This document shows positions 869 to 31,338 of a DNA stretch of 39,607 nucleotides, piece by piece (position 1 is the stretch's first letter; each line of letters starts with the position of its first letter). The stretch is taken from IMG/VR virus record IMGVR_UViG_3300022198_001097, positions 1-39,607 of that record. The stretch is one strand, 5' to 3'. The notes under the pieces are model-generated. The model did no database searches and was not told the DNA's origin. It saw nothing but the letters and a program-made list of their open reading frames with translations. The DNA is from a virus. The translations under genes were made by a program, and so were the position numbers.

Positions 869-1318
869 CTCTTCGTCATCCTCATATTCTTCTTCGTCAT
901 CCGCAAACTGATCTGGAAAAGCTTGGGCAGCAAGTTCAAATACTTTTTCAAATCCAATTATTTTCATGGAATCAATTATCTCTTTTTCAAGAGATTCAGA
1001 AGAGACATCTTCTGTCTCAGAATTATTTCCCCTTACACGAGAAAGAAGTTCAAGAGCCTTTAGTGCAGTAGTTCCATTACCTGCATTACGAGCAACTTCA
1101 TACTGTTTTTCTATCTCAGATATAACATCTACATCAGTAACAATCTGACTTCGTAACTCTTCGATACGTTCAAGAATTGCAGTTTCCTGTAGTAGTCTAT
1201 ATCCTTGATTGTGTGCAGAAGCTTCACTATATCCTGCATCCTTTGCCGCCCTTGTAGCATTGTTATGCAGGATATAGTTTTGACAGAACTTCTCTTGCTT
1301 TTCTTTAAGCTGCGTCAT
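803..1318 (-). CDS. terS: Terminase small subunit (Terminase_2-like)
   Basis: The protein has 171 residues. The N-terminus reads LKEKQEKFCQNYI, then NATRAAKDAGYSEASA and a LL hydrophobic turn (residues 4-45), the classic DNA-binding helix-turn-helix of the Terminase_2 small subunits. A helical middle (about 50-110) would form the oligomerisation core. The tail is strongly acidic (about 138-150, many D/E). TerS recognises the packaging site on concatemeric DNA and hands it to TerL. The start overlaps the end of the 762-residue gene upstream by 14 nt, indicating translational coupling. It is on the opposite strand to, and about 21 kb from, terL, which is unusual. The 3' end overlaps the holin gene tail to tail by 66 nt. 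Confidence 0.8.
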   Translation of the reverse strand: MTQLKEKQEKFCQNYILHNNATRAAKDAGYSEASAHNQGYRLLQETAILERIEELRSQIVTDVDVISEIEKQYEVARNAGNGTTALKALELLSRVRGNNSETEDVSSESLEKEIIDSMKIIGFEKVFELAAQAFPDQFADDEEEYEDDEELLLTEELTRTTDTEAGSNDDT

Positions 1319-3593
1319 TCAATAACTCTGTATAGTATTTTTCCTGACCACGTTTAGATTGCTTCCAAACTGCTGCAGCTAGAGTTCCTTCACCATGGAA
1401 GTTAATACCCATGTCCATGTCTACATTATCAAACAGCTTCTCACAGTCTTGTGCCATAGCAAGTAGTTCACCTGTAGTCCAGAACTTATGACCACCTGTT
1501 TCTACCTGCATATACTTAGGCTTAGTCTTTTCTGTGTCAGTCTTTTCCTTTTTCATTTCCTCTGTCATAGTTGGAACAGAACAATCAAAACCAAACAGTT
1601 CAAAGTTTCTAAAGCCTAGTGTATGTGCAATGGCAATGGTACGCATAGCTGCACAAGTGCCACCAGTAATAAGTGTAGAGCCTTCCTCTATACCTGTAGA
1701 CTTGTCTACTACAATCTTATCCTTTACATTCATGTCACGTAGTGCATCTGAATAAGCTTGCCATCCCTTTATATTAGCACCTTGCTCAAGCAAATATTTA
1801 GTAACAGATGGGTCAGTCATAGAAGCAACAAGCATGATAGTCTTATCGTCCACTGTCTTAAACAAATCCTTACGTACTACACCATGTGTACTTGTTCCAT
1901 CAATAGGACGTGGATCTAGAATAACACAGGCAAATGGTTGGATGCCATTCTCAAGCAACTTGGGATAGCTATGCTTAACACAGAATACTTTACCTTTAGT
2001 TTGCTTGATTGTCTTCTTAACCAATTTCCAGTTAACACTATCACCGCCAGAGATAATAATAGCAGTTTCATTATTGATCTTACTAGTTTTAATCCAGTCG
2101 AAATCTTTAATAAGCTTTTTATTTTCTTTTACATTATTAATGATCTCTTCTTTAGGCCGTGAATCTTTAGGTGTAACAACAATAGGTACACGTGTTAATT
2201 CATCAGGCAGTTTAGGCAGTCCTTCTTTCATAGCAACAAAGCATAGGTGTGTAACACCACCATCCTTTACCATGTCACTGCTAGGTAGCACTACTTTAGC
2301 ATATGCCACAACCTCTTTCATTAACTGATTAACGCCATCATTCTCAGGCATACGTCCTTCTTTGTCTTTAGAAAAGTAATCATCAAAGACAAGAACAGGA
2401 ATATGTTTTAGATTTTCAAAGTCAGCTTTAACTGTTTCATATGAATGACCGCCATCAATGTATGCAAAGTCTGCACCTTTAACTGATTCACAATCTTTAA
2501 GAGTTTGTTTGGTGTCTCCTTTATATAATTCAAATGTAAACTCTTTTCCTTTTTCAAACATCTTACCACCGAACTCTTCCAGTCGTTTAGTAACGGCGGC
2601 AAGTGTATTGTGTGGTTTAGAGTTTAATTCTATATGGTCTAGTTCAGGTGTAGCTTCCTCAAATAAATCAAAGCCTACATAATGTACACTGTCTGTGTAC
2701 TGGAATGCAGCCATAGCCATTTGAATAGCACGTCCACCATTCCAAGTACCTGTCTCTACAATAGTACTTGGTCTGTAAAACCCAATCATATCAAGCAATT
2801 GCTTGTATCTCTTAGGGCCATTAACATCAGGTGCTACCTGAGTATCACTAAGTTTCTTCTTTAGATTACCCTTGAAGTGGTCGAAGTATTCTGCCAATGG
2901 AGACTGAGCAAATGCTGCAAGACCTTTTACTCCTTGTGACAGATTGTTTGTTACCATACCATGTGCTTTGTAAATATTTAACAAACGTTCAAAGATAAAT
3001 CCGTCATGCCATTCACGATAAGCAACAACCTCACCTATAGTGTAACAGCCACGAAGGTCAGCAAGTAAGCTACAAGTGTTATGAGAACTAAGGTTAAAGC
3101 CCATAAAACTTGTTTCGCTATAGTCAACGTCCATTCTACCAAGGTGGACAAGATCTGCTTTGTCTGGTAACCATTGCTTAAACTTTTCAATATCCAATCT
3201 CCTTGTGGTTACTGTGTCTGCGTCCAACCAGATCATCCAGTTGCTTTCGTCATAGACATCTTCCATCATTTCAAAAGCTAGATCGGTCATGGCATATACT
3301 TTGTGACACCATTTGATAGCATCAAGCCGCCAGTTATATGGCATATTACCACCTTCAGTACCATCGTGAAGCTTCATACGTTCACGATACTCAAGCATTT
3401 CTTCAACATCATTTAGATTACGATACTCAATTGTATCACAAACAGGATGCTCTACATTTTTAATGTCAAAGTCATGGTAGTATGCAATTAGTTTAAAATG
3501 TTTTGGATTCCATTTATCCATAACACTTTCAAGCATTTTCTTGGCATACTCATGGTAGCCTTGTTCACTGAACGATGTTACAAAAACATACAT
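1305..3593 (-). CDS. Three-domain protein: GT-A glycosyltransferase + SAM methyltransferase + MptE/DUF115-like
   Basis: The protein has 762 residues. Domain 1 (about 1-235) resembles a nucleotide-sugar glycosyltransferase with a DxD metal site at D124/D126 (MIWLDADTV). Domain 2 (about 260-455) is a class I SAM-dependent methyltransferase: motif I is IVETGTWNGG (278-287), with an acidic strand YVGFDLFEE and the YIDGGHSYE motif (378-386) of the Methyltransf_24/cephalosporin hydroxylase type. Domain 3 (about 508-760) has AIIISGGDS, then CVKHSYPKLLENGIQPFACVILDPR (538-562) and GTCAAMRTIAIAHTLGF (646-661), the pattern of MptE-like/DUF115 domains found in motility-accessory and glycan proteins. The sequence suggests a sugar-transferring and methylating enzyme that modifies phage or host glycans, or possibly DNA; the substrate is unknown. 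It starts at the stop (TAATG) of a second glycosyltransferase gene and overlaps terS. Confidence 0.7.
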   Translation of the reverse strand: MYVFVTSFSEQGYHEYAKKMLESVMDKWNPKHFKLIAYYHDFDIKNVEHPVCDTIEYRNLNDVEEMLEYRERMKLHDGTEGGNMPYNWRLDAIKWCHKVYAMTDLAFEMMEDVYDESNWMIWLDADTVTTRRLDIEKFKQWLPDKADLVHLGRMDVDYSETSFMGFNLSSHNTCSLLADLRGCYTIGEVVAYREWHDGFIFERLLNIYKAHGMVTNNLSQGVKGLAAFAQSPLAEYFDHFKGNLKKKLSDTQVAPDVNGPKRYKQLLDMIGFYRPSTIVETGTWNGGRAIQMAMAAFQYTDSVHYVGFDLFEEATPELDHIELNSKPHNTLAAVTKRLEEFGGKMFEKGKEFTFELYKGDTKQTLKDCESVKGADFAYIDGGHSYETVKADFENLKHIPVLVFDDYFSKDKEGRMPENDGVNQLMKEVVAYAKVVLPSSDMVKDGGVTHLCFVAMKEGLPKLPDELTRVPIVVTPKDSRPKEEIINNVKENKKLIKDFDWIKTSKINNETAIIISGGDSVNWKLVKKTIKQTKGKVFCVKHSYPKLLENGIQPFACVILDPRPIDGTSTHGVVRKDLFKTVDDKTIMLVASMTDPSVTKYLLEQGANIKGWQAYSDALRDMNVKDKIVVDKSTGIEEGSTLITGGTCAAMRTIAIAHTLGFRNFELFGFDCSVPTMTEEMKKEKTDTEKTKPKYMQVETGGHKFWTTGELLAMAQDCEKLFDNVDMDMGINFHGEGTLAAAVWKQSKRGQEKYYTELLNDAA

Positions 3594-4576: not shown

Positions 4577-4605
4577 ATAACAAAGACATAGCTATTTTAC
4601 TACAA
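4577..4605 (-). promoter_or_regulatory. Possible sigma70-type promoter (minus strand)
   Basis: On the minus strand TTGTAG is followed after 17 nt by TGTTAT in the 43-nt gap before the coiled-coil gene. The matches to TTGACA/TATAAT are partial, but the spacing is ideal and this is one of the few real gaps in the leftward operon. It would drive the coiled-coil, glycosyltransferase and terS genes. Confidence 0.3.
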
Positions 4606-5118
4606 TTAAGCCGCCATGTCAACAAGTATTTTATCAAAGTCAACAAGTTCTTTTTGTTCTGCAACAAAACATTTCTTCATAAACTTAGGTGGAAGGATGT
4701 ATCTTTCTGGTTTAAATAACTCCTTTGCTTCCATACCACCTACGATTGTGTATGATCCATATTCACCAGTAACAAGAACAAGAAGATCAATAGCTGGATT
4801 CTCTTTGTATGATATTAATCTTCCTGTCTTGTACCTTGTGTGTTTAATATCTATGGACACACCTTTATAGATGATGTCTCCGGGGTCTGTGCCACGATCA
4901 ATAGAGAAGTCACCACCAAGGAAGATTAGTTCTGGATAAACATTTAGATACTTACATACAGCAAGTTCTGCCATGTATCCTTCCCAATCTATCTTGGACT
5001 GATCCTGTGTCTTATCAACTATGCTTGGTGAATCCTGTCCATTAAACATATTACGTCTATGAACTGCACAGGTTTTTGCTACAGCCTTTTCTCTATCTGT
5101 AAGTTGTATGTTTATCAT
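4606..5118 (-). CDS. PD-(D/E)XK nuclease-like protein
   Basis: The protein has 170 residues. A conserved helix Glu (E51 in GYMAELAV) is followed by GTDPGDIIYKGVSIDIKHTR, with D81 and the D90-I-K92 pair. This is the E...D...(D/E)xK arrangement of PD-(D/E)XK nucleases. The C-terminal half alternates strand and helix with no extra motif. Proteins of this size and pattern are common in marine phages and may cut host DNA or process branched DNA. The start ATG overlaps the ribonucleotide reductase stop (ATGA), so the two genes are coupled. The assignment is from the active-site pattern only. Confidence 0.55.
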   Translation of the reverse strand: MINIQLTDREKAVAKTCAVHRRNMFNGQDSPSIVDKTQDQSKIDWEGYMAELAVCKYLNVYPELIFLGGDFSIDRGTDPGDIIYKGVSIDIKHTRYKTGRLISYKENPAIDLLVLVTGEYGSYTIVGGMEAKELFKPERYILPPKFMKKCFVAEQKELVDFDKILVDMAA

Positions 5119-7040
5119 GCCGCACTTAGATCCACGATTTCACATACACCTGCAGTACAGGCCAATTCACGTCCACCTGATGTAGTGTCTTCCTTTTCAA
5201 ACTCAGGAAGCAAAGACCAGTCCACATTCTTAGGCATCTTAGCTACCAGTTCTTTATACGTTTCAGCATCGATGTCCTGATAAGGTGCTTGCTGATATGT
5301 ATGTTCACTGAATGGTAAGAAGCTAATACCAGATACTTCATCGAAGTGTTTGTATACCCAAGCACCTACTTCCATCCATTCATTTTCCTTTACAGAAATA
5401 GTAACTGATGGTTTATGTTCACACCAATGACGCTGGTATAATAGCCACAGTTCAAGCTGTTCAATAGCAGTCATACCTGTACGTGTCACTGCATTCTTAG
5501 GTGACTTCATTGGAAAGCTAAACACTGTAGTACTATCTGGTTTAGTTACGTCTGGTTCATTAATGATACCTTGAGACTTCATAAACTCTGTCAATGGGTC
5601 TTTGTTATCACCACGAACAGTACGAATGTAGTACGGATTGTGACGTGCATGAATACCTGATGCACTATCTACTAACTGAGACACAGTACCACTAGGCTTT
5701 ACACAAGTAATGGCAGTTGATTGACTAATGCCAAGCTGTTGTGCCATAGATTTGTTAGCTTCAATAGCTGTAACACGAAGCATCTCAAGTGTGTCAGCTA
5801 CTTCTTTTCCTTTGTGAAGTATAGAACAGTCCATGATGCCTGTAAGAGACACGCCAAGCAGACGTTCTTCTTCCGTGTTCTGCTTCCAGATCTTACGGAG
5901 ATACTTGAAGTTAGTCAGAGTAGCTTGGAATGTACCAAGGATAGTTGCAAGACGTACCTTTTCTTTCAATGATAGAAGAGTATCAGTCTCACGTGCTACA
6001 ACCTCTGACAGATTACAGAACTGATAAGGACGTAGGATGATTTCAGAACAAGGGTTACAACCAAAGTCCTGATCAGCGTCACGTCTACCATTCTTAGCTG
6101 CTTGCTTCTTGGATGATTCACGGTTGAAGATACCACGTTCACCTGACTTACTGTCGTACAGTGACAACCATTCACGCATGAATGTACCCATTTCTGGCTT
6201 CTGTTTATAGGCCACAGAGTTATTAGCCAGCGCACGTTGACCTTCATTCTCCCACCACTGGCCTGACTTGGCGTGTGCCATCTGGTCATCATTAAGATTG
6301 GATAAGCTGATCAAAGCTGAACGGCGTACACCACCAACGACTACCACTTCACCAATCTTACACATGATGTCATGGCATTCAATAGGATAGAGCCTACGTC
6401 CTGCCGCACCCTTAAACTTCTCAATACAGAAGTTAAACAATTCGATCAGCGGTTGTGGGCCAGACGCACGTCCACCAAAGGTCTTCAGTCTTGCCCCTGC
6501 AGGACGAACTTCTGATACATCGAACTTAGGAACCTGACCAGTGTACAGCATAGCAATCAGTTCTTTCAATGACTTAGCCCAACCCGGACGACTATCACCT
6601 ACTTTAATTACTGTGTCTGTATTGTGAAACTCTTCATTCACTACAGGAAGTTTCTCAATGTTGTGTCGTTCCACAGAGAAGCCGACACCTGTACCACACA
6701 TAAGGATGTACATAGTTTCGTCAAATGCACGTGGACTATCCACTGGTAGATAAGAACAATTATATCCACCTACATGACAACGTTCCAATGCAGGGCCACT
6801 GGTCATCAGTGAACGCATACTTGGCATAATAGATTGGTTTAATACTGCTTCTTCCAGTTCACTTCTCAGTGAATCAGGAAGCTGATAGCCGTGATTACTA
6901 GACAGATGCCCAGCCATATAATCAAAATATCTTGATACTGTTTCATTCCATGTTTCTCGTCTTTGTTCATCTTCTTTCCACCTTGCATAACGTGATAGGG
7001 CTATAAAATTTTGATAGTCTGTAGGTAAATAATTATTCAT
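5115..7040 (-). CDS. nrdJ: Ribonucleoside-triphosphate reductase, class II, B12-dependent, monomeric
   Basis: With the start at MNNYLPTDYQ, preceded by AAAGGA 8 nt upstream, the protein has 641 residues. C88 (ALERCHVGGYNCS) is the first redox cysteine of the active-site pair. GCNPCSEI at 327-334 holds N329, C331 (thiyl radical) and E333, and C342 (QFCNLS) is the likely redox partner of C88. The C-terminus has the shuttle pair C628/C633 in CTAGVC, with the C-x4-C spacing of Lactobacillus-type RTPR. Such enzymes use adenosylcobalamin to reduce ribonucleotides to deoxyribonucleotides, feeding phage DNA synthesis in the host cytoplasm, so the host must supply or import B12. No second subunit is needed or seen. 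A likely promoter lies just upstream. Confidence 0.92.
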   Translation of the reverse strand: MNNYLPTDYQNFIALSRYARWKEDEQRRETWNETVSRYFDYMAGHLSSNHGYQLPDSLRSELEEAVLNQSIMPSMRSLMTSGPALERCHVGGYNCSYLPVDSPRAFDETMYILMCGTGVGFSVERHNIEKLPVVNEEFHNTDTVIKVGDSRPGWAKSLKELIAMLYTGQVPKFDVSEVRPAGARLKTFGGRASGPQPLIELFNFCIEKFKGAAGRRLYPIECHDIMCKIGEVVVVGGVRRSALISLSNLNDDQMAHAKSGQWWENEGQRALANNSVAYKQKPEMGTFMREWLSLYDSKSGERGIFNRESSKKQAAKNGRRDADQDFGCNPCSEIILRPYQFCNLSEVVARETDTLLSLKEKVRLATILGTFQATLTNFKYLRKIWKQNTEEERLLGVSLTGIMDCSILHKGKEVADTLEMLRVTAIEANKSMAQQLGISQSTAITCVKPSGTVSQLVDSASGIHARHNPYYIRTVRGDNKDPLTEFMKSQGIINEPDVTKPDSTTVFSFPMKSPKNAVTRTGMTAIEQLELWLLYQRHWCEHKPSVTISVKENEWMEVGAWVYKHFDEVSGISFLPFSEHTYQQAPYQDIDAETYKELVAKMPKNVDWSLLPEFEKEDTTSGGRELACTAGVCEIVDLSAA

Positions 7041-7075
7041 ATGTCGCTTCCTTTCTGAATAGTGAATAAGACTCA

Positions 7076-7104
7076 AGTGTACCACAACAGGGTCACAGTT
7101 GCAA
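7076..7104 (-). promoter_or_regulatory. Possible promoter for the ribonucleotide reductase gene
   Basis: Minus strand: TTGCAA, 17 nt, TACACT, in the 68-nt gap before nrdJ. Four of six bases match in each hexamer. The predicted start of transcription is about 30 nt before the ATG. Confidence 0.4.
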
Positions 7105-7108
7105 TAAT

Positions 7109-7435
7109 CTAATGCCCTAAAACTGCATTAATTCTTTTGCGAACATACTCTACTTCACCAGATTTAAGAACCTTGAAAGCAAAGTCACGCATATAAGAAG
7201 GATCAACGCCAGCATAGTCACAGACTACGGTGAAGTCTTCTGAAGTTACTCCGACTGATGCAAAGAACCAAGCAACTGCCCGATCTCTTTCAAGCACAGA
7301 TGAATCTGGTTCACCCATGTATGAAGGTTTCGTGGCATCAAGCAGTGCTTGTAGTATAACGCAGAGGAACAACGTCTTCTCAGGCGTTGTAACCTCATTG
7401 ATTATTTCATCTATTACTATTTCTTCTTTTTTCAT
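7109..7435 (-). CDS. Conserved phage protein, unknown function
   Basis: The protein has 108 residues. It has an acidic helical N-terminus, a hydrophobic helix TLFLCVILQALLDAT (about 19-33), then AWFFASVGVTSEDFTVVCDYAGVDPSYMRDF (about 54-84). That last part looks like a helix-turn-helix-type fold often seen in phages of marine bacteria near endonuclease I. It overlaps the end of the endonuclease I gene by 29 nt and has no strong ribosome binding site, so it depends on coupling. I recall similar proteins as hypothetical only. Confidence 0.6.
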   Translation of the reverse strand: MKKEEIVIDEIINEVTTPEKTLFLCVILQALLDATKPSYMGEPDSSVLERDRAVAWFFASVGVTSEDFTVVCDYAGVDPSYMRDFAFKVLKSGEVEYVRKRINAVLGH

Positions 7436-7829
7436 TCAGCCATTCTATTGGTATACCTTCGCCTTGCTTACAGTATTTGAAGTCATACTTCTCACACCAA
7501 TCGGCATAGGTCATCTTACCACCTTTGTATAGTTTACGATTAGGGTTATCAAATACAAATCTAATGTCATAGTCAGAACCATACTGGTCACGAATAAACA
7601 GATGTTTCTTTCTATCTTCCAACATAAACCTGCCCTTGACTTCAAGTATGACACCATTAGGTAAGATAAAATCAGGAATGTATTTTTTATCTTCAGTCCA
7701 TACATAACTGATTGGATCAGCCTCATACTTGAAATCAATCTTGTGTTTGATTAACACAGTGGCAGTATTATATTCTGAATTAGATCTGTACTTATGATCT
7801 ATGTCACGCTTTCTTCTTTTATGCGGCAT
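7407..7829 (-). CDS. Endonuclease I (T7 gp3-like Holliday junction resolvase)
   Basis: From the ATG overlapping the exonuclease stop by 11 nt, the protein has 140 residues, close to the 149 of T7 gp3. The catalytic set is present with T7 spacing: E19, D53 (YIPDFILPNG), E63 and K65 (ILEVKGRF), followed by DRKKHLFIRDQ and YDIRFVFDNPNRKLYKG, which mirror T7 gp3 almost word for word. It resolves four-way junctions and debranches replication intermediates before packaging, and may help degrade host DNA. It lies in a block with an exonuclease and SSB. The C-terminus (GEGIPIEWLNE) is also like T7. Confidence 0.93.
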   Translation of the reverse strand: MPHKRRKRDIDHKYRSNSEYNTATVLIKHKIDFKYEADPISYVWTEDKKYIPDFILPNGVILEVKGRFMLEDRKKHLFIRDQYGSDYDIRFVFDNPNRKLYKGGKMTYADWCEKYDFKYCKQGEGIPIEWLNEKRRNSNR

Positions 7830-8685
7830 CAGTAATCTCTTCAACGTTAGGTGTCTTTGCTACCTGTACTAGGTGACGGACACCATTAGAGTATTGAAAA
7901 GATCTGATACCTGTACCACCATTAGCATCGTCCCAGCATTTAAACTTGTATGGACAAAACACACATCCAATAGCAAGCTTCATATTACCAGACGTACCAT
8001 CAGGTTCTGGTTGATAACAACGTTCAGGTGGTGTTGAAGAAGAAATCATGCTCTTAACATTCCGAATACGTTCAGATGCATTGATCATATGTACAGGCTG
8101 TACTTCCATTAGTGCAAGATCTGCAGATGATTTATCAATAGCAAAGAATGCAGCTTTGTTGTCGTTACCTGCTTCAGCATATCCACTGATCTGAGCAATG
8201 TATCCGAAAGGATCATCAGAATGTAGTGTTCCTTCCTTAAACTTCTTAAAGGCGTATGGAGAAGCAGACTTGATATCTACAAGGACACCATCGATACGAC
8301 AGTCTTTGTGTCCCTTGATACCTTCAACCTCAACTTCCTCTTGTTTCTCTGTCACAGTGTGACCAGCCAGTTCTGTCAATGCAATCAACAGGGCTTCTAG
8401 GATATCTCCATATAGAAACTTGATACGAGTTTGACCGTTGATCATTTCTGCTTCAACATTTTCCTGCATATCATACCACAGTTGGCGATTAGGTTTACCT
8501 ACCTGTGACATACGCAGTCTTGGTTTTCTCCTTTCTGTTGATGGTTCTGATAATGCCTTGCGAAGAATCGAAGACATTTCACTACCAAAGTTATGTAGAA
8601 TATCTCTGTTCTGCACAGACGAAACGTTTGTACCATTCTCAAGAAGACTATATATGTCTTCAATAAGTGTATCTATCTTTTTCAT
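7819..8685 (-). CDS. RecB/Cas4-like PD-(D/E)XK exonuclease
   Basis: The protein has 288 residues. Active-site pattern: E97 (GDILEALL), D132 (DCRIDGVLV), D137-I-K139 (VDIKS) and the RecB-type Gln in YIAQISGY (Q165). The C-terminal part has CVFCPYKFKC, the C-x2-C-x5-C triplet of Cas4/AddB iron-sulfur nucleases. The partner cysteine normally found near the N-terminus before RxLWY is not present here (QVGKPNRQLWY, about 61-71), so the cluster may be incomplete. The likely role is 5'-3' or 3'-5' resection during phage recombination or host DNA degradation. The gene starts at the stop of the DUF3310 gene (TAATG) and overlaps the endonuclease I gene. Confidence 0.75.
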   Translation of the reverse strand: MKKIDTLIEDIYSLLENGTNVSSVQNRDILHNFGSEMSSILRKALSEPSTERRKPRLRMSQVGKPNRQLWYDMQENVEAEMINGQTRIKFLYGDILEALLIALTELAGHTVTEKQEEVEVEGIKGHKDCRIDGVLVDIKSASPYAFKKFKEGTLHSDDPFGYIAQISGYAEAGNDNKAAFFAIDKSSADLALMEVQPVHMINASERIRNVKSMISSSTPPERCYQPEPDGTSGNMKLAIGCVFCPYKFKCWDDANGGTGIRSFQYSNGVRHLVQVAKTPNVEEITDAA

Positions 8686-8999
8686 TACGATAGTTCCTTT
8701 CTGGTTTGTTCGTTAATAAGCTTGGCTAAATACCACTGTGCTTTCTGTAGATCTTCCATACCATTCTTATATCTATATCTCCAAAGATATTTAATTATGT
8801 TTCCTTGAAGATAATACTCAAAGCCATCACCACAAGCCGCTTCAATAGCATCAATACATTCTATACCTGAAGCATTGTAATGTGGTGGATGGTCTACCAT
8901 ATCCACATCTGATTGCTTGTTAGCTTGAACAGTTTTGGTATGCATCCACTGATCATTTAGTTCAGCTTGTTTAGCTTTCATAAAATCTTCATGTCTCAT
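8685..8999 (-). CDS. DUF3310 protein
   Basis: The protein has 104 residues. The central signature VDHPPHYNASGIECIDAIEA, then GFEYYLQGNIIKYLWRYRYKNGMEDLQKAQWYLAKLI (about 35-95), is that of the DUF3310 family of small phage proteins, sometimes annotated as nucleotide kinase-like. The biochemical role is not established. The N-terminal 30 residues are a variable helical extension. A ribosome binding site (GAAGGAG) precedes the ATG. The stop is shared with the exonuclease start. Confidence 0.8.
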   Translation of the reverse strand: MRHEDFMKAKQAELNDQWMHTKTVQANKQSDVDMVDHPPHYNASGIECIDAIEAACGDGFEYYLQGNIIKYLWRYRYKNGMEDLQKAQWYLAKLINEQTRKELS

Positions 9000-9105: not shown

Positions 9106-9594
9106 TTAGGCTGCTGACGAAACACCAAAGTTAATGTCATCGTCATCGAAGGAAGCGTCTTCTGCATTGTAGCCGCCGGGAACAACATCAAAGTCATCGG
9201 CATCATCCTTGCCACCATAGGCCACAAGATTTACTACCTGTACAGCTTGAAGATCTGTACCGATTCCTTTGTTACCTGCATATTCCCATTCATAGGTTTT
9301 AAACAGGACGTTAACATCGGAACCATTACCAATAAGAGTACCGTGCATATCACGCTTCTGACCATCCTTCAGTGCTGGTGCAGAATTAACACCACCATCT
9401 TTACGATTTACCTTACGCTTGATACTTACAAAGTTACCACGGTCATCACCCTTGGATTTAATTTTAAGACCTAGCTTCTTGGCCTTCTCAACTTCACTTT
9501 CGTTCAAAGAAAGATCAACCTGATAGACAGGCTCATAAGTTGTGTTAGGTGTTGAGATAGATGCCCAATAAGCTTTTCCTGATAATACTGGCAT
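9106..9594 (-). CDS. Single-stranded DNA-binding protein (T7 gp2.5-like)
   Basis: The protein has 162 residues. The N-terminal two-thirds are beta-rich (YEPVYQVDLSL, VSIKRKV, VLFKTYEWEY, LQAVQVVNLVAY), as in an OB fold. The tail is strongly acidic with an aromatic (DDADDFDVV and SFDDDDINF, about 132-158), as in gp2.5-type proteins, which use the acidic C-terminus to contact polymerase and helicase. It follows DNA polymerase and precedes the nucleases in the operon. It has its own strong promoter in the 90-nt gap upstream and an AAAGGAG site, consistent with high expression. Identity to gp2.5 is by architecture, not by a long motif. Confidence 0.7.
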   Translation of the reverse strand: MPVLSGKAYWASISTPNTTYEPVYQVDLSLNESEVEKAKKLGLKIKSKGDDRGNFVSIKRKVNRKDGGVNSAPALKDGQKRDMHGTLIGNGSDVNVLFKTYEWEYAGNKGIGTDLQAVQVVNLVAYGGKDDADDFDVVPGGYNAEDASFDDDDINFGVSSAA

Positions 9595-9648
9595 GATAAA
9601 TGCTCCTTTCTTTCTATGTGGTCTTAGCCACTGTTGTATGATTTGTGA

Positions 9649-9677
9649 ATTATGACATAGGTAATTACATATGTCAA
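9649..9677 (-). promoter_or_regulatory. Strong sigma70 promoter overlapped by a 24-bp palindrome
   Basis: Minus strand: a perfect TTGACA (9677-9672), a 17-nt spacer, then CATAAT (9654-9649, five of six). It lies between the DNA polymerase stop and the ssb start. Almost the whole promoter core is occupied by the palindrome at 9653-9676: TGACATA arms around GTAATTAC, symmetric in 22 of 24 bases. This looks like an operator for a dimeric repressor or activator. Confidence 0.75.
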
Positions 9678-9684
9678 CATATAT

Positions 9685-11340
9685 TTAATGAGTTTCTGCC
9701 CAATTGTTTCCAATTTTAAATTCACTGTCCAATGGACACAGAACATTCAGTTCTTTTTCTACAAGCTTCATTGCTTTCTGTGTCATTTCACCAAAGCTTT
9801 GTGCTTGATCTTTCCGAACCTCAAACTGATACTCATCGTGGATACTAGCGACAAGGCTGTAATCAAAGCCCTGTCGTCTAGCCAATATTGTTATTTGCCT
9901 TAACCATTCTTTACAGATAATTGCACCTGCACCTTGTAACAAAAGATTAGCGGCGGCGTGTTGTTGTCGTACCTTTAGAAGTCTTCCATCAAGACCACGA
10001 ATATATCCAGTCTGTGCCGCCCTATCAATCTTATCACGCAATGATTTTAGGGCTGGCATATTAGACATAAACTTAGACATGATATCTTTACCTTCTTTAG
10101 CACCACCACCAACAATAGATCCGATCTTGAATGGCCCTGCGCCATAGATCAGAGCATATATAAAGGTCTTTGCCGCATCCCTAGTAGGAAGACCAGCGGC
10201 CTTTTGATTCGCAGTATGAATGTCACCATTCACAACCTCTTCGGTAAACCTTTTATCTCCCATGTAATGTGCGAGACACCGAAGTTCAAGAGAAGATGCA
10301 TCACACCCTAACAGTGAATACCTACTGTCTGTCGTAGTCCAAACGGCACGGCATTCCTTACCATATGGTGAGTATACCGCAGGGATTTGCGCCATGTTTG
10401 GACTGTGATGTGCCATCCTTCCTGAGATTGCTTTAAGGGTCATAACCCTACCATGAACCTTGTTGTCGTCAGCTACAACGTTAATCCATGATTTGATTTG
10501 TGATACCCTTTTTTGCAATAGCAGATATTGTGAAATCTTCTGAGCCTCTGGAATGTCTACACCATTCAGTGTACCTTCATCCACAATTGGATGTCCAGTA
10601 GGTGTGAAGCTTGTAGGCTTCCAGCCTTTTGCTATCAGACGCTTTGCAATCTGTTGGCGAGAAGCTGGATTAAAAATCTCCACATGGTCTTTCAATCTAT
10701 TACCTGTCTTTTCAGAATACCTTTCAGTAATGATAGGTGGGAAGATTGATTGCATCTCAGATTCAATATCTGCCGCTTCTTCCGAAAGCCTCGCCATTAG
10801 ACACGAAGCTTCTGGAACATTTAGTGTGAAGCCATTGCGTTCCTGTTGATCAACGATAGCCCTGATGGTGTGTTCAAGTTCGATACTCTTTGTCGAATAC
10901 TTCTGGATCATAGGCATCAAGTGATTGTACAGTTTCACTGTAAGCTTCACGTCATTCACACAGTATTCAAGCATCTGCTGATTGAAGTGTGTGAAATCTG
11001 AATAGTCTGTCTTTGGAAACCCAAGGCGTTTACCCCAAGCATCAAGAGAATGTCCATCTTCCATTGCTGGATCAACAAGCTGAGACAGGATCAGTGTATC
11101 CCGAACCTGTTTCAGTTTGATGTTACTTCCTGTCAGACGATTCAATGTAGGTGCATCGAAGGACACACCATTATGCATGATAAAAATATCATATCGTTCT
11201 GACCATTCAGGAAACTTCTTGATTGTGTCACCATGAAAAGCAAACACCTGATTGGTATCCAAATCTTGGGCAGCAATACAGTGGATGACTGTTGCGTTCA
11301 GATCATCTGTTTCTATATCTACTGCCACACGTTTATTCAT
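9685..11340 (-). CDS. DNA polymerase, family A (T7-like) with 3'-5' exonuclease
   Basis: The protein has 551 residues. Exonuclease domain: D8/E10 (VDIETD), N57/D62 (MHNGVSFD) and D130 (YCVND). Polymerase domain: GRMAHHSPNMAQIP (307-320), motif A with D347 (GCDASSLELRCLAHYM), motif B RDAAKTFIYALIYG (387-400) and motif C HDE (501-503). NGDIHTANQ and PTRDAAKTFIY match T7 polymerase very closely. The residue equivalent to E. coli Pol I F762 is Tyr395, as in T7. From exo III to the GRMAHHSPN motif there are about 80 fewer residues than in T7, about the size of the thioredoxin-binding loop, so this enzyme probably lacks it. The gene lies between a possible nuclease and ssb. It is the replicative polymerase of the phage. 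Confidence 0.95.
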   Translation of the reverse strand: MNKRVAVDIETDDLNATVIHCIAAQDLDTNQVFAFHGDTIKKFPEWSERYDIFIMHNGVSFDAPTLNRLTGSNIKLKQVRDTLILSQLVDPAMEDGHSLDAWGKRLGFPKTDYSDFTHFNQQMLEYCVNDVKLTVKLYNHLMPMIQKYSTKSIELEHTIRAIVDQQERNGFTLNVPEASCLMARLSEEAADIESEMQSIFPPIITERYSEKTGNRLKDHVEIFNPASRQQIAKRLIAKGWKPTSFTPTGHPIVDEGTLNGVDIPEAQKISQYLLLQKRVSQIKSWINVVADDNKVHGRVMTLKAISGRMAHHSPNMAQIPAVYSPYGKECRAVWTTTDSRYSLLGCDASSLELRCLAHYMGDKRFTEEVVNGDIHTANQKAAGLPTRDAAKTFIYALIYGAGPFKIGSIVGGGAKEGKDIMSKFMSNMPALKSLRDKIDRAAQTGYIRGLDGRLLKVRQQHAAANLLLQGAGAIICKEWLRQITILARRQGFDYSLVASIHDEYQFEVRKDQAQSFGEMTQKAMKLVEKELNVLCPLDSEFKIGNNWAETH

Positions 11341-15269: not shown

Positions 15270-15791
15270 TTATTCTCCTTTCATCCAGCTAGGTTTTTGT
15301 CGGCCTTTATTATAACGAGCAATTTTAGTTTTGGCAACAACATAAAAAGAACGATACGCCATGACAGGCCACTTCTCATCTGTCTTACATTCATCGTGAC
15401 CACTGAAGCACTGTGGATGTGGTGTCATCTGTCCTTCAGGTATGTAGTGTCTAGCATACAGTAAATGTTGTGGCCTAGCGTTGGGGTTGGTTGTGCTAGG
15501 GTTGCCAGCCCCATGCCACTTACCATATCTATGATGGTATTCTGCAAGCATAGATGTGTATAGATTGAAAGCGTACACAAAGTTGGCACGAGTTTCCATA
15601 GCCCATCGTGTACACGGATGATTCTTATGCGCTGGTTTGTATAGTTCGTGATGCTCTGCATACTCAGGTGCATGATGCCATATAGCAGTGCATAGCATCT
15701 GTGCTTCTTCCAAAGGCATCTTGACTATGTGCTTGTCGCATAGCTGTTTAGCTATTGCGTCAGGGTGGTGGTCAATTATGAATCTATTCAT
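15270..15791 (-). CDS. Conserved phage protein of the CDKHxVKM..AQML type
   Basis: With the start at MNRFIIDHHPD, where AGGAG lies 7 nt upstream, the protein has 173 residues. The frame extends seven codons further, but that stretch contains the ribosome binding site. Key motifs: LCDKHIVKMPLEEAQMLCTA (about 17-36), HPCTRWAMETRANFVYAFNLY and a C-terminal KWPVMAYRSFYVVAK. The His/Cys-rich core (CDKH, HH, HPC, CFSGHDEC) suggests metal binding. I recall this family as widespread in phages and uncharacterised. The start A overlaps the preceding stop (TAATG). Confidence 0.65.
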   Translation of the reverse strand: MNRFIIDHHPDAIAKQLCDKHIVKMPLEEAQMLCTAIWHHAPEYAEHHELYKPAHKNHPCTRWAMETRANFVYAFNLYTSMLAEYHHRYGKWHGAGNPSTTNPNARPQHLLYARHYIPEGQMTPHPQCFSGHDECKTDEKWPVMAYRSFYVVAKTKIARYNKGRQKPSWMKGE

Positions 15792-15997
15792 TATATAACT
15801 CCTAATACCCAATTTTCTGCACAGTTTTCGGCATACACCTCACTGTGTCCTTTGAGGTTACGTTCTTCTTTTACCTCGCCATCCTGTATCATGTAAACAG
15901 TATAACTACCATCTGGCTCAACAAAGACAGTCGCTTTGCGGTATGCACCCATGCCACGACTGCAATCTTCATCACTGTAAAACTCATGCAACAGCAT
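15791..15997 (-). CDS. Small protein of unknown function
   Basis: The protein has 68 residues from the ATG 7 nt after AGGAG (MLLHEFYSDEDC); an in-frame ATG two codons earlier is too close to the site. Strand-rich middle ATVFVEPDGSYTVYMIQDGEVKEE. Stop and next start share TAATG. No family is recognised. Confidence 0.55.
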   Translation of the reverse strand: MLLHEFYSDEDCSRGMGAYRKATVFVEPDGSYTVYMIQDGEVKEERNLKGHSEVYAENCAENWVLGVI

Positions 15998-20818: not shown

Positions 20819-20911
20819 AGTGTCGTCAGTACACTACGCCTACCAACCGTGGCTGATCATGGTACAAAGCCCCATGAGGATAGGCTATTCGGAAAATGAA
20901 AAAATGAATAT

Positions 20912-20965
20912 TTAGAACAGGGAATAATATATATACCCTAAAGGGTATATTATTCCCTGTTCTAA
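20912..20965. terminator. Long hairpin 1 (asymmetric palindrome), possible terminator
   Basis: Left arm 20912-20939 starts TTAGAACAGGGAATAATAT, right arm 20942-20965 ends ATTATTCCCTGTTCTAA, with a 2-nt loop. The left arm has 4 extra nt (an additional ATAT). It sits between the stop of the 105-residue gene and the next leftward gene. On the minus strand it is followed by an AT-rich run with TTTTTT about 10 nt on. It may stop or process leftward transcripts. Confidence 0.6.
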
Positions 20966-20978
20966 TTGTTACCGGATT

Positions 20979-21296: not shown

Positions 21297-21350
21297 GTCG
21301 TTGTGTTCCTTTCGCAAACATGATTGATTGAATAAATTTTTCGGCAATTT

Positions 21351-21401
21351 AAAACCCCTATTTAATTTATTCATACTTCGTATGAATTAAATAGGGGTTT
21401 T
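21351..21401. terminator. Long hairpin 2 (AAAACCCC...GGGGTTTT)
   Basis: Left arm 21351-21376 and right arm 21380-21401 around a TTC loop. The arms begin AAAACCCCTATTTAATT and match except for 4 extra nt (TTAT) in the left arm. Read rightwards the stem ends GGGGTTTT followed by ATTTTT, as in an intrinsic terminator; read leftwards it ends GGGGTTTTAAA. It lies 55 nt before the leftward 105-residue gene. Confidence 0.6.
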
Positions 21402-21456
21402 ATTTTTGGTTGTCAAACGATTTTTTCGATGATGATTTGCCGGGTGAAAACACAAC

Positions 21457-21538: not shown

Positions 21539-21591
21539 CAATAGATTATTTAATTTATTCATAACTCTGTTATGAATTAAATAATCTATTG
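21539..21591. terminator. Long hairpin 3
   Basis: Left arm 21539-21565, loop TCT, right arm 21569-21591. The outer arms read CAATAGATTATTTAATT; the left arm has 4 extra nt (TTAT), at the same inner place as in hairpin 2, and the inner arm (TTTAATT...CATA / TATGAATTAAA) is nearly the same as hairpin 2 while the outer arm differs. No run of T follows directly, so a terminator is only one option; RNA processing or a mobile repeat is possible. Confidence 0.55.
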
Positions 21592-21773: not shown

Positions 21774-21911
21774 TCTATAAAGATTTGTTCAGAACCCCCA
21801 CCAAAAAAATGCAGGTTTATTTATATTATATATATGACCCTGACATATATTTAAAAAAATTAAAGGGACTTTCATCGGGGCTAATTAGTTGGTAGGAAAA
21901 GATTATAAAAA

Positions 21912-21946
21912 AAGTTCGTACAAGTTTAATTAACTTATACGAACTT
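21912..21946. repeat. Inverted repeat with 15-bp arms
   Basis: AAGTTCGTACAAGTT and AACTTATACGAACTT around TAATT, one mismatch in 15. It could form a hairpin in RNA from either strand or be a binding site. No T run follows. It lies 130 nt before the rightward block. Confidence 0.55.
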
Positions 21947-22044
21947 CACTTAACTATATAACTATGTGTGTTGCTGTGTCGGGTAGGTATTTACCTTTGG
22001 AAACTTAGTAGTAAAATAACATATTTTTAAAACTTATGCAAGTG

Positions 22045-31278: not shown

Positions 31279-31307
31279 GGTTAATTTAAATTAATCTGAA
31301 AAAAGTA

Positions 31308-31338
31308 GGGGAAGGGTCTTTGATCCTTCTCCTTTTTT
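31308..31338 (+). terminator. Intrinsic terminator after the capsid gene
   Basis: GGGGAAGGGTC, a TTT loop and GATCCTTCTCC make an 11-bp stem with two G-U pairs, followed directly by TTTTTT. An A run before the stem could lengthen it. Confidence 0.85.

Follow-up and report, generated by a model that had tools for sequence, protein, structure and literature searches.

In phage T4, gene 32, which encodes the single-stranded DNA-binding protein Ssb, is controlled by an autogenous translational operator with a pseudoknot (PMC535899, PMC3014915), and gene 43, which encodes the DNA polymerase, likewise has a translational operator (PMC3014915). Here we describe the ssb locus on a 39.6-kb contig from an uncultured virus (IMG/VR record IMGVR_UViG_3300022198_001097, positions 1 to 39,607; the whole stretch is called the window below). 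As with T4 gene 32, ssb lies in a replication cluster, a structured 5′ leader element precedes an unstructured, A-rich ribosome site, and relatives diverge in sequence while keeping the structure, here by compensation. Unlike the T4 case, the window has a predicted 14-nt hairpin in place of a pseudoknot, and its SSB is gp2.5-like by PHROG match. The layout of the leader also resembles that of the T4 gene 43 operator, although gene and loop differ.

The locus has a second likeness, to operators of dimeric repressors that overlap a promoter, in that a symmetric repeat covers the −35 to −10 region of a single promoter. In contrast to such operators, its spacing is variable, its centre and outer arm bases are unconserved, and there are no further copies. 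A literature search returned no paper on the promoter repeat or the leader element and no precedent for this exact arrangement; a survey of HMO-2011-type phages makes no mention of promoters (PMC9038755).

Gene neighbourhood of ssb

The ssb gene (9106..9594, minus strand) encodes a gp2.5-like single-stranded DNA-binding protein of 162 aa (PHROG 112, E 2.9e-11). Directly upstream lies a polA-type DNA polymerase gene (9685..11340, minus strand; PHROG 17, E 7e-144). Downstream of ssb are genes for a Cas4-domain exonuclease (7819..8685), phage endonuclease I (7407..7844; Pfam PF05367) and a ribonucleotide reductase (5115..7085; PHROG 367), all on the minus strand, together with a small protein from a family annotated as nucleotide kinase (8685-8999). 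The original prediction, which grouped ssb with nuclease and ribonucleotide reductase genes under control separate from the polymerase, was thus borne out in its gene context. Further along, a 762-aa protein (1305-3593, minus strand) joins methyltransferase-24 and MptE-like domains, an unusual fusion for a phage.

The nearest cultured relatives of PolA and SSB are the pelagiphages HTVC115P, HTVC103P and HTVC104P (SSB 40-50% and PolA ~45% identical), and the window terminase is nearest to that of HTVC023P, pointing to mosaic affinities. On these grounds we dropped an identity as an HMO-2011-type phage. In HTVC115P ssb comes before primase and polA, unlike the order in the window. Scanning genome contigs yielded no host assignment. 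A search for a phage T7-type RNA polymerase found no match, which is a weak negative, as control genomes also gave none.

A predicted promoter for ssb inside the operon

Within this co-directional replication operon, ssb has its own predicted sigma-70-type promoter, TTGACA-17-CATAAT with an extended −10 TG (11/12 matches), at 9677-9649 on the minus strand, as originally proposed. The −35 box TTGACA occupies 9672..9677 and the −10 box CATAAT 9649..9654, with the TG at 9656-9657 in the 17-base spacer; promoter geometry would place the transcript start in the region 9640..9644, ~7 bases past the −10 box. To describe this promoter as the strongest one is a slight exaggeration: a score of 11/12 is reached at four sites of the first 20 kb, among which only the ssb promoter carries the TG, and the remainder of the window has no promoter-like site above 10. 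Another promoter-like site, TTGACA-17-TAAAAT (4594-4622, minus strand), overlaps the end of gene 4606-5118 and is kept in locus L079 (at 15457), where it has no inverted repeat.

We collected relatives by scanning IMG/VR with the SSB protein, an SSB profile and single relatives, which gave >200 uncultured phage loci, several of them the same contig; one of these scans kept 80 of 573 ssb loci. A sigma-70-type promoter precedes ssb in 61 distinct sequence variants, and boxes resembling TTGAC(A/T)-16/17/18-(T/C/G)ATAAT are found in most loci with enough upstream sequence, the −35 box and the position of the −10 box both being kept. The 36 loci without a promoter by the rule used include several incomplete ones and others with a weaker −10. 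The promoter is retained even where the stop codon of a different upstream gene falls inside the repeat (L019, L020, L044, L067 and L102). Its presence across relatives, irrespective of the upstream gene, makes it the most conserved feature of the locus.

An inverted repeat spans the promoter

Superimposed on the promoter is TGACATAGGTAATTACATATGTCA, an inverted repeat at 9653-9676 (minus-strand reading) with arms TGACATA and TATGTCA. Its first base is base 2 of the −35 box, the last five bases of which open the repeat, and its last is base 2 of the −10 box; the end of polA lies 8 bases upstream and the start of ssb 58 bases downstream. The predicted 24-bp near-perfect palindrome over −35 to −10 is therefore real: 22/24 bases (11/12 pairs) are symmetric, which ranks it first for symmetry among all 24-mers of the window. 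Allowing ≤3 mismatches, the palindrome pattern has a single match in the window and 0 in shuffled sequences, and there is no second copy in the window or its record. A rough hand estimate from base composition puts the number of 24-bp palindromes of such symmetry expected in the whole window at ~0.14, so that comparison with relatives, and not symmetry alone, has to bear the case. The exact palindrome recurs in IMG/VR in four near-identical relatives only, which is uninformative on constraint. A perfect palindrome at L102:457 was discarded, as it sits within coding sequence.

The original prediction saw a likely operator in the repeat. On an operator reading, the repeat would be a double-stranded DNA site at which a dimeric regulator of phage or host would bind the arms and block RNA polymerase at the ssb promoter. 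We regard this as a possibility to be taken seriously, though with a chance clearly below even. The position of the repeat coincides with −35 to −10, where repressors classically act, and its symmetry is near perfect in the window, L012 and L047. Of what is expected for a dimeric-repressor operator, the dyad over the promoter is there (11/12 pairs), but fixed half-site spacing is not.

The arms of the repeat change together

Comparison of relatives indicates that pairing between the −35-side and −10-side arms is conserved, whereas sequence and spacing are not. The centre, GTAATTAC, is confined to the nearest relatives. Both arms vary in step: TGACATA/TATGTCA in the window and L047 corresponds to TGACACA/TGTGTCA in L012, TGACAC/GTGTCA in L019, TGACAG/CTGTCA in L020 and ACAGGA/TCCTGT in L168, and a 20-bp class has TGACATAC/GTGTGTCA versus TGACATAG/CTGTGTCA (L033, L084). 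Across nine distinct 24-bp forms, arm covariation was 0.313 compared with 0.114 ± 0.046 after shuffling (0/500 shuffles as high), and sliding the partner arm abolished it. In 13 arm classes, with registers set by eye, three positions outside the hexamers pair in 27/39 cells against 13.8 expected. G-T mismatches are frequent, yet not above the expectation from column composition. In total the repeat measures 20, 22, 24 or ~25 bp, against a promoter spacing that is constantly 17, and the length classes are intermixed on the SSB tree.

The refuting condition named with the original prediction, a palindrome lost in close relatives that keep the promoter hexamers, therefore has a mixed outcome: in the nearest relatives that differ from the window, promoter and arms have been kept, the latter through compensating changes, and the exact palindrome has not. 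The ssb promoter of HTVC115P also carries an inverted repeat able to fold, with arms different from those of the window (ACACTT/AAGTGT). In distant relatives the repeat signal is weak or absent and the promoter is kept. The association with ssb is specific: in an unguided scan of every distinct promoter-like site in the loci assembled by that stage, 23 had arms matching in at least 6 of 8 positions, all but two of them before ssb, and after clustering such arms were found at 10/22 ssb promoters versus 1/34 other promoter-like sites (P = 1.5e-4).

These data lend no support to an operator of fixed sequence, since GTAATTAC is unconserved, the distance between the arms shifts repeatedly and the window and record hold a single copy. 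What survives of the operator proposal is constraint beyond the hexamers and specificity for the ssb promoter. Matched changes in both arms would also arise if operator and regulator diverged together among lineages, and the 20-bp class keeps TGTCA despite having lost the overlap with the −10 box. Weighing against a dimer-binding site are differences of 2 to 5 bp in arm spacing among close relatives, the occurrence of one copy per record, and the different arms of L035 and L044, whose SSBs are very similar.

A further explanation needs no function at all. By their nature, −35 and extended −10 sequences can pair in part (TTGACA versus TRTGTCA), and template switching during replication could have perfected the resulting quasi-palindrome. 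The invariant core TGACA/TGTCA is indeed largely promoter sequence, and the fading of the repeat in distant relatives that retain the promoter fits a by-product of this kind. However, a folding excess persists relative to spacer shuffles that retain the hexamers and the TG, other promoter-like sites of the same genomes are without the repeat, and near relatives differ in their loops with the arms kept. We therefore consider a by-product unlikely.

Folding is biased towards the sense strand

Folding was scored as z values against spacer shuffles in which the hexamers and the TG were held fixed. On the sense strand, mean z was −1.39 for ssb promoters and −0.10 for others (P = 5e-4); on the antisense strand the corresponding values were −0.79 and −0.24 (P = 0.07). 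In a paired comparison at ssb promoters, sense values were below antisense values (P = 0.0013). These statistics rest on related sequences and the bias is moderate, and both strands fold equally well in several classes, that of the window included. A duplex operator gives no reason for a strand bias, so the preference for the sense strand speaks against a rigid dimer site, as does the variable repeat length at constant promoter spacing. On these two grounds we rate a hairpin somewhat above an operator; put mildly, an RNA hairpin seems to suit the repeat no less well than a classic site for a repressor.

Our working model, which we hold tentatively and at a little short of an even chance, is that the hairpin-forming repeat superimposed on the ssb promoter acts in RNA read through from polA or another upstream gene, beside a leader hairpin that tunes ssb. 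In the polA read-through RNA, the stem of the repeat is predicted to form with pair probabilities of 0.80-0.98. Such a hairpin would serve as an end mark on the upstream message, for pausing, processing or protection. RNA begun at the ssb promoter would be without it and would open instead with a hairpin at 9618-9631, after which the ribosome site lies in A-rich, unpaired sequence; this second hairpin probably tunes translation or stability of the ssb message, perhaps through SSB itself. The formation of this RNA in the cell, its role and its binding partner are all inferred.

Two other roles for a folded repeat were rejected. An ordinary intrinsic terminator does not fit because no U-run follows the repeat, and a terminator scan made no call at 9653-9676. 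A promoter in single-stranded DNA, as in F-plasmid Frpo or N4, was set aside because the −35 and −10 sides of the same strand pair with each other, which gives no duplex promoter. A single-stranded DNA hairpin serving replication, for example as a priming or loading site beside polA and ssb, would yield the same covariation, variable loop and strand bias. Yet cumulative GC skew reaches its minimum near 21 kb, away from the repeat (though this may merely reflect gene direction), and the element accompanies ssb also in loci with a different gene upstream, suggesting a connection with the expression of ssb. We judge a replication hairpin very improbable.

Candidate regulators and known host operators

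Small unknown proteins of the leftward cassette had been named as candidates for a regulator of the repeat. Among the cassette proteins scanned, all but a few small ORFs, none was recognisable as a member of a helix-turn-helix or other regulator family, which may count against an operator; most small proteins matched no family at all and the record is possibly partial, so that a regulator may have escaped recognition. One search of the whole window for a helix-turn-helix family was also negative, and the LexA-like protein of HTVC103P and HTVC104P has no homologue in the window. One protein of the small-gene cassette (15270-15812, minus strand) weakly matches the Pfam family of pyrimidine dimer DNA glycosylase (PF03013).

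Known host sites were compared with the repeat by inspection. The alphaproteobacterial LexA site has the form GTTC-N7-GTTC, which is absent. PhoB boxes are direct repeats, a form that does not fit, and MerR-type sites were rejected because they require a longer spacer. NrdR boxes measure 16 bp, which suits only the class of L033 and L084, and an NrdR box was rejected as well.

A covarying hairpin in the ssb leader

The leader hairpin (GTGG-CTAAGA-CCAC; 9618..9631, minus strand) has a 4-bp stem and a loop of the form C-NNN-G-A/T, which we take to be the pseudo-triloop pattern seen in iron-responsive elements. Its 3′ end is ~23 bases ahead of the start codon, and the ribosome-binding site AAGGAG (9603..9608, minus strand) sits in an A-rich, predicted mostly unpaired stretch. 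The 4-bp stem and the inner pair are formed in 18/18 distinct variants, and four of the five pairs have changed on both sides: stems include GTGG/CCAC, GCGT/ACGC, GCGG/CCGC, GCGA/TCGC, GCAA/TTGC and GGGG/CCCC, to which L168 adds GCAG/CTGC. Covariation was 0.603 compared with 0.231 after shuffling (0/500 as high). In single-sequence folding of the window, the inner C-G pair has low probability.

This hairpin probably acts as a regulatory RNA element for ssb, and it is better supported than the promoter repeat. It occurs once in the window, and searches for further copies elsewhere gave few matches, at about chance level; Rfam has no match in the window at the gathering threshold. We found no pseudoknot in the leader, where a simple hairpin is predicted and, by inspection, the loop has no complement. 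In distant relatives (L231, L108-L117 and L144), other ssb-leader hairpins replace the C-NNN-G form, for example GTAGT-ATTTAA-ACTAC and TTCGTA-GTTAA-TACGAA.

Implications for the control of SSB supply

Taken in full, our reading would give the promoter a dual use, with its two sides also forming the arms of a selected hairpin in the upstream message and the leader hairpin serving self-control of a gp2.5-like SSB; we regard this full combination as doubtful. If it is true, two overlapping layers would set the supply of SSB in an uncultured marine phage group. Where phages of this kind lack a recognisable RNA polymerase, they depend on host machinery to time gene expression, and little is known outside model phages about how they do so. 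At a single replication gene, the evolutionary signal is strong in two small elements. Should SSB bind its leader, autogenous control of ssb would extend from T4-like gp32 (and M13 gp5) to gp2.5-like SSB. For a palindrome over a promoter, the locus argues for checking spacing and strand bias in relatives before the label of operator is applied.

Other hairpins in the window

Between the leftward and rightward gene blocks lie three long A+T-rich hairpins (20907-20970, 21350-21402 and 21539-21591), all bulged by 4 nt at a similar position, with a loop of 3-4 nt and a predicted energy of ~−20 to −33 kcal/mol. One top is common to the second and third, whose base stems differ; the first two are also present in the near-identical locus L004 and nowhere else among the loci compared. 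At the head of the leftward block, a 16-pair hairpin with a T-run behind it (21911-21947, minus strand) resembles a terminator and is a possible attenuator. Among the rightward genes, a strong terminator-like hairpin (31307-31333, plus strand) consists of 12 pairs followed by TTTTTG.
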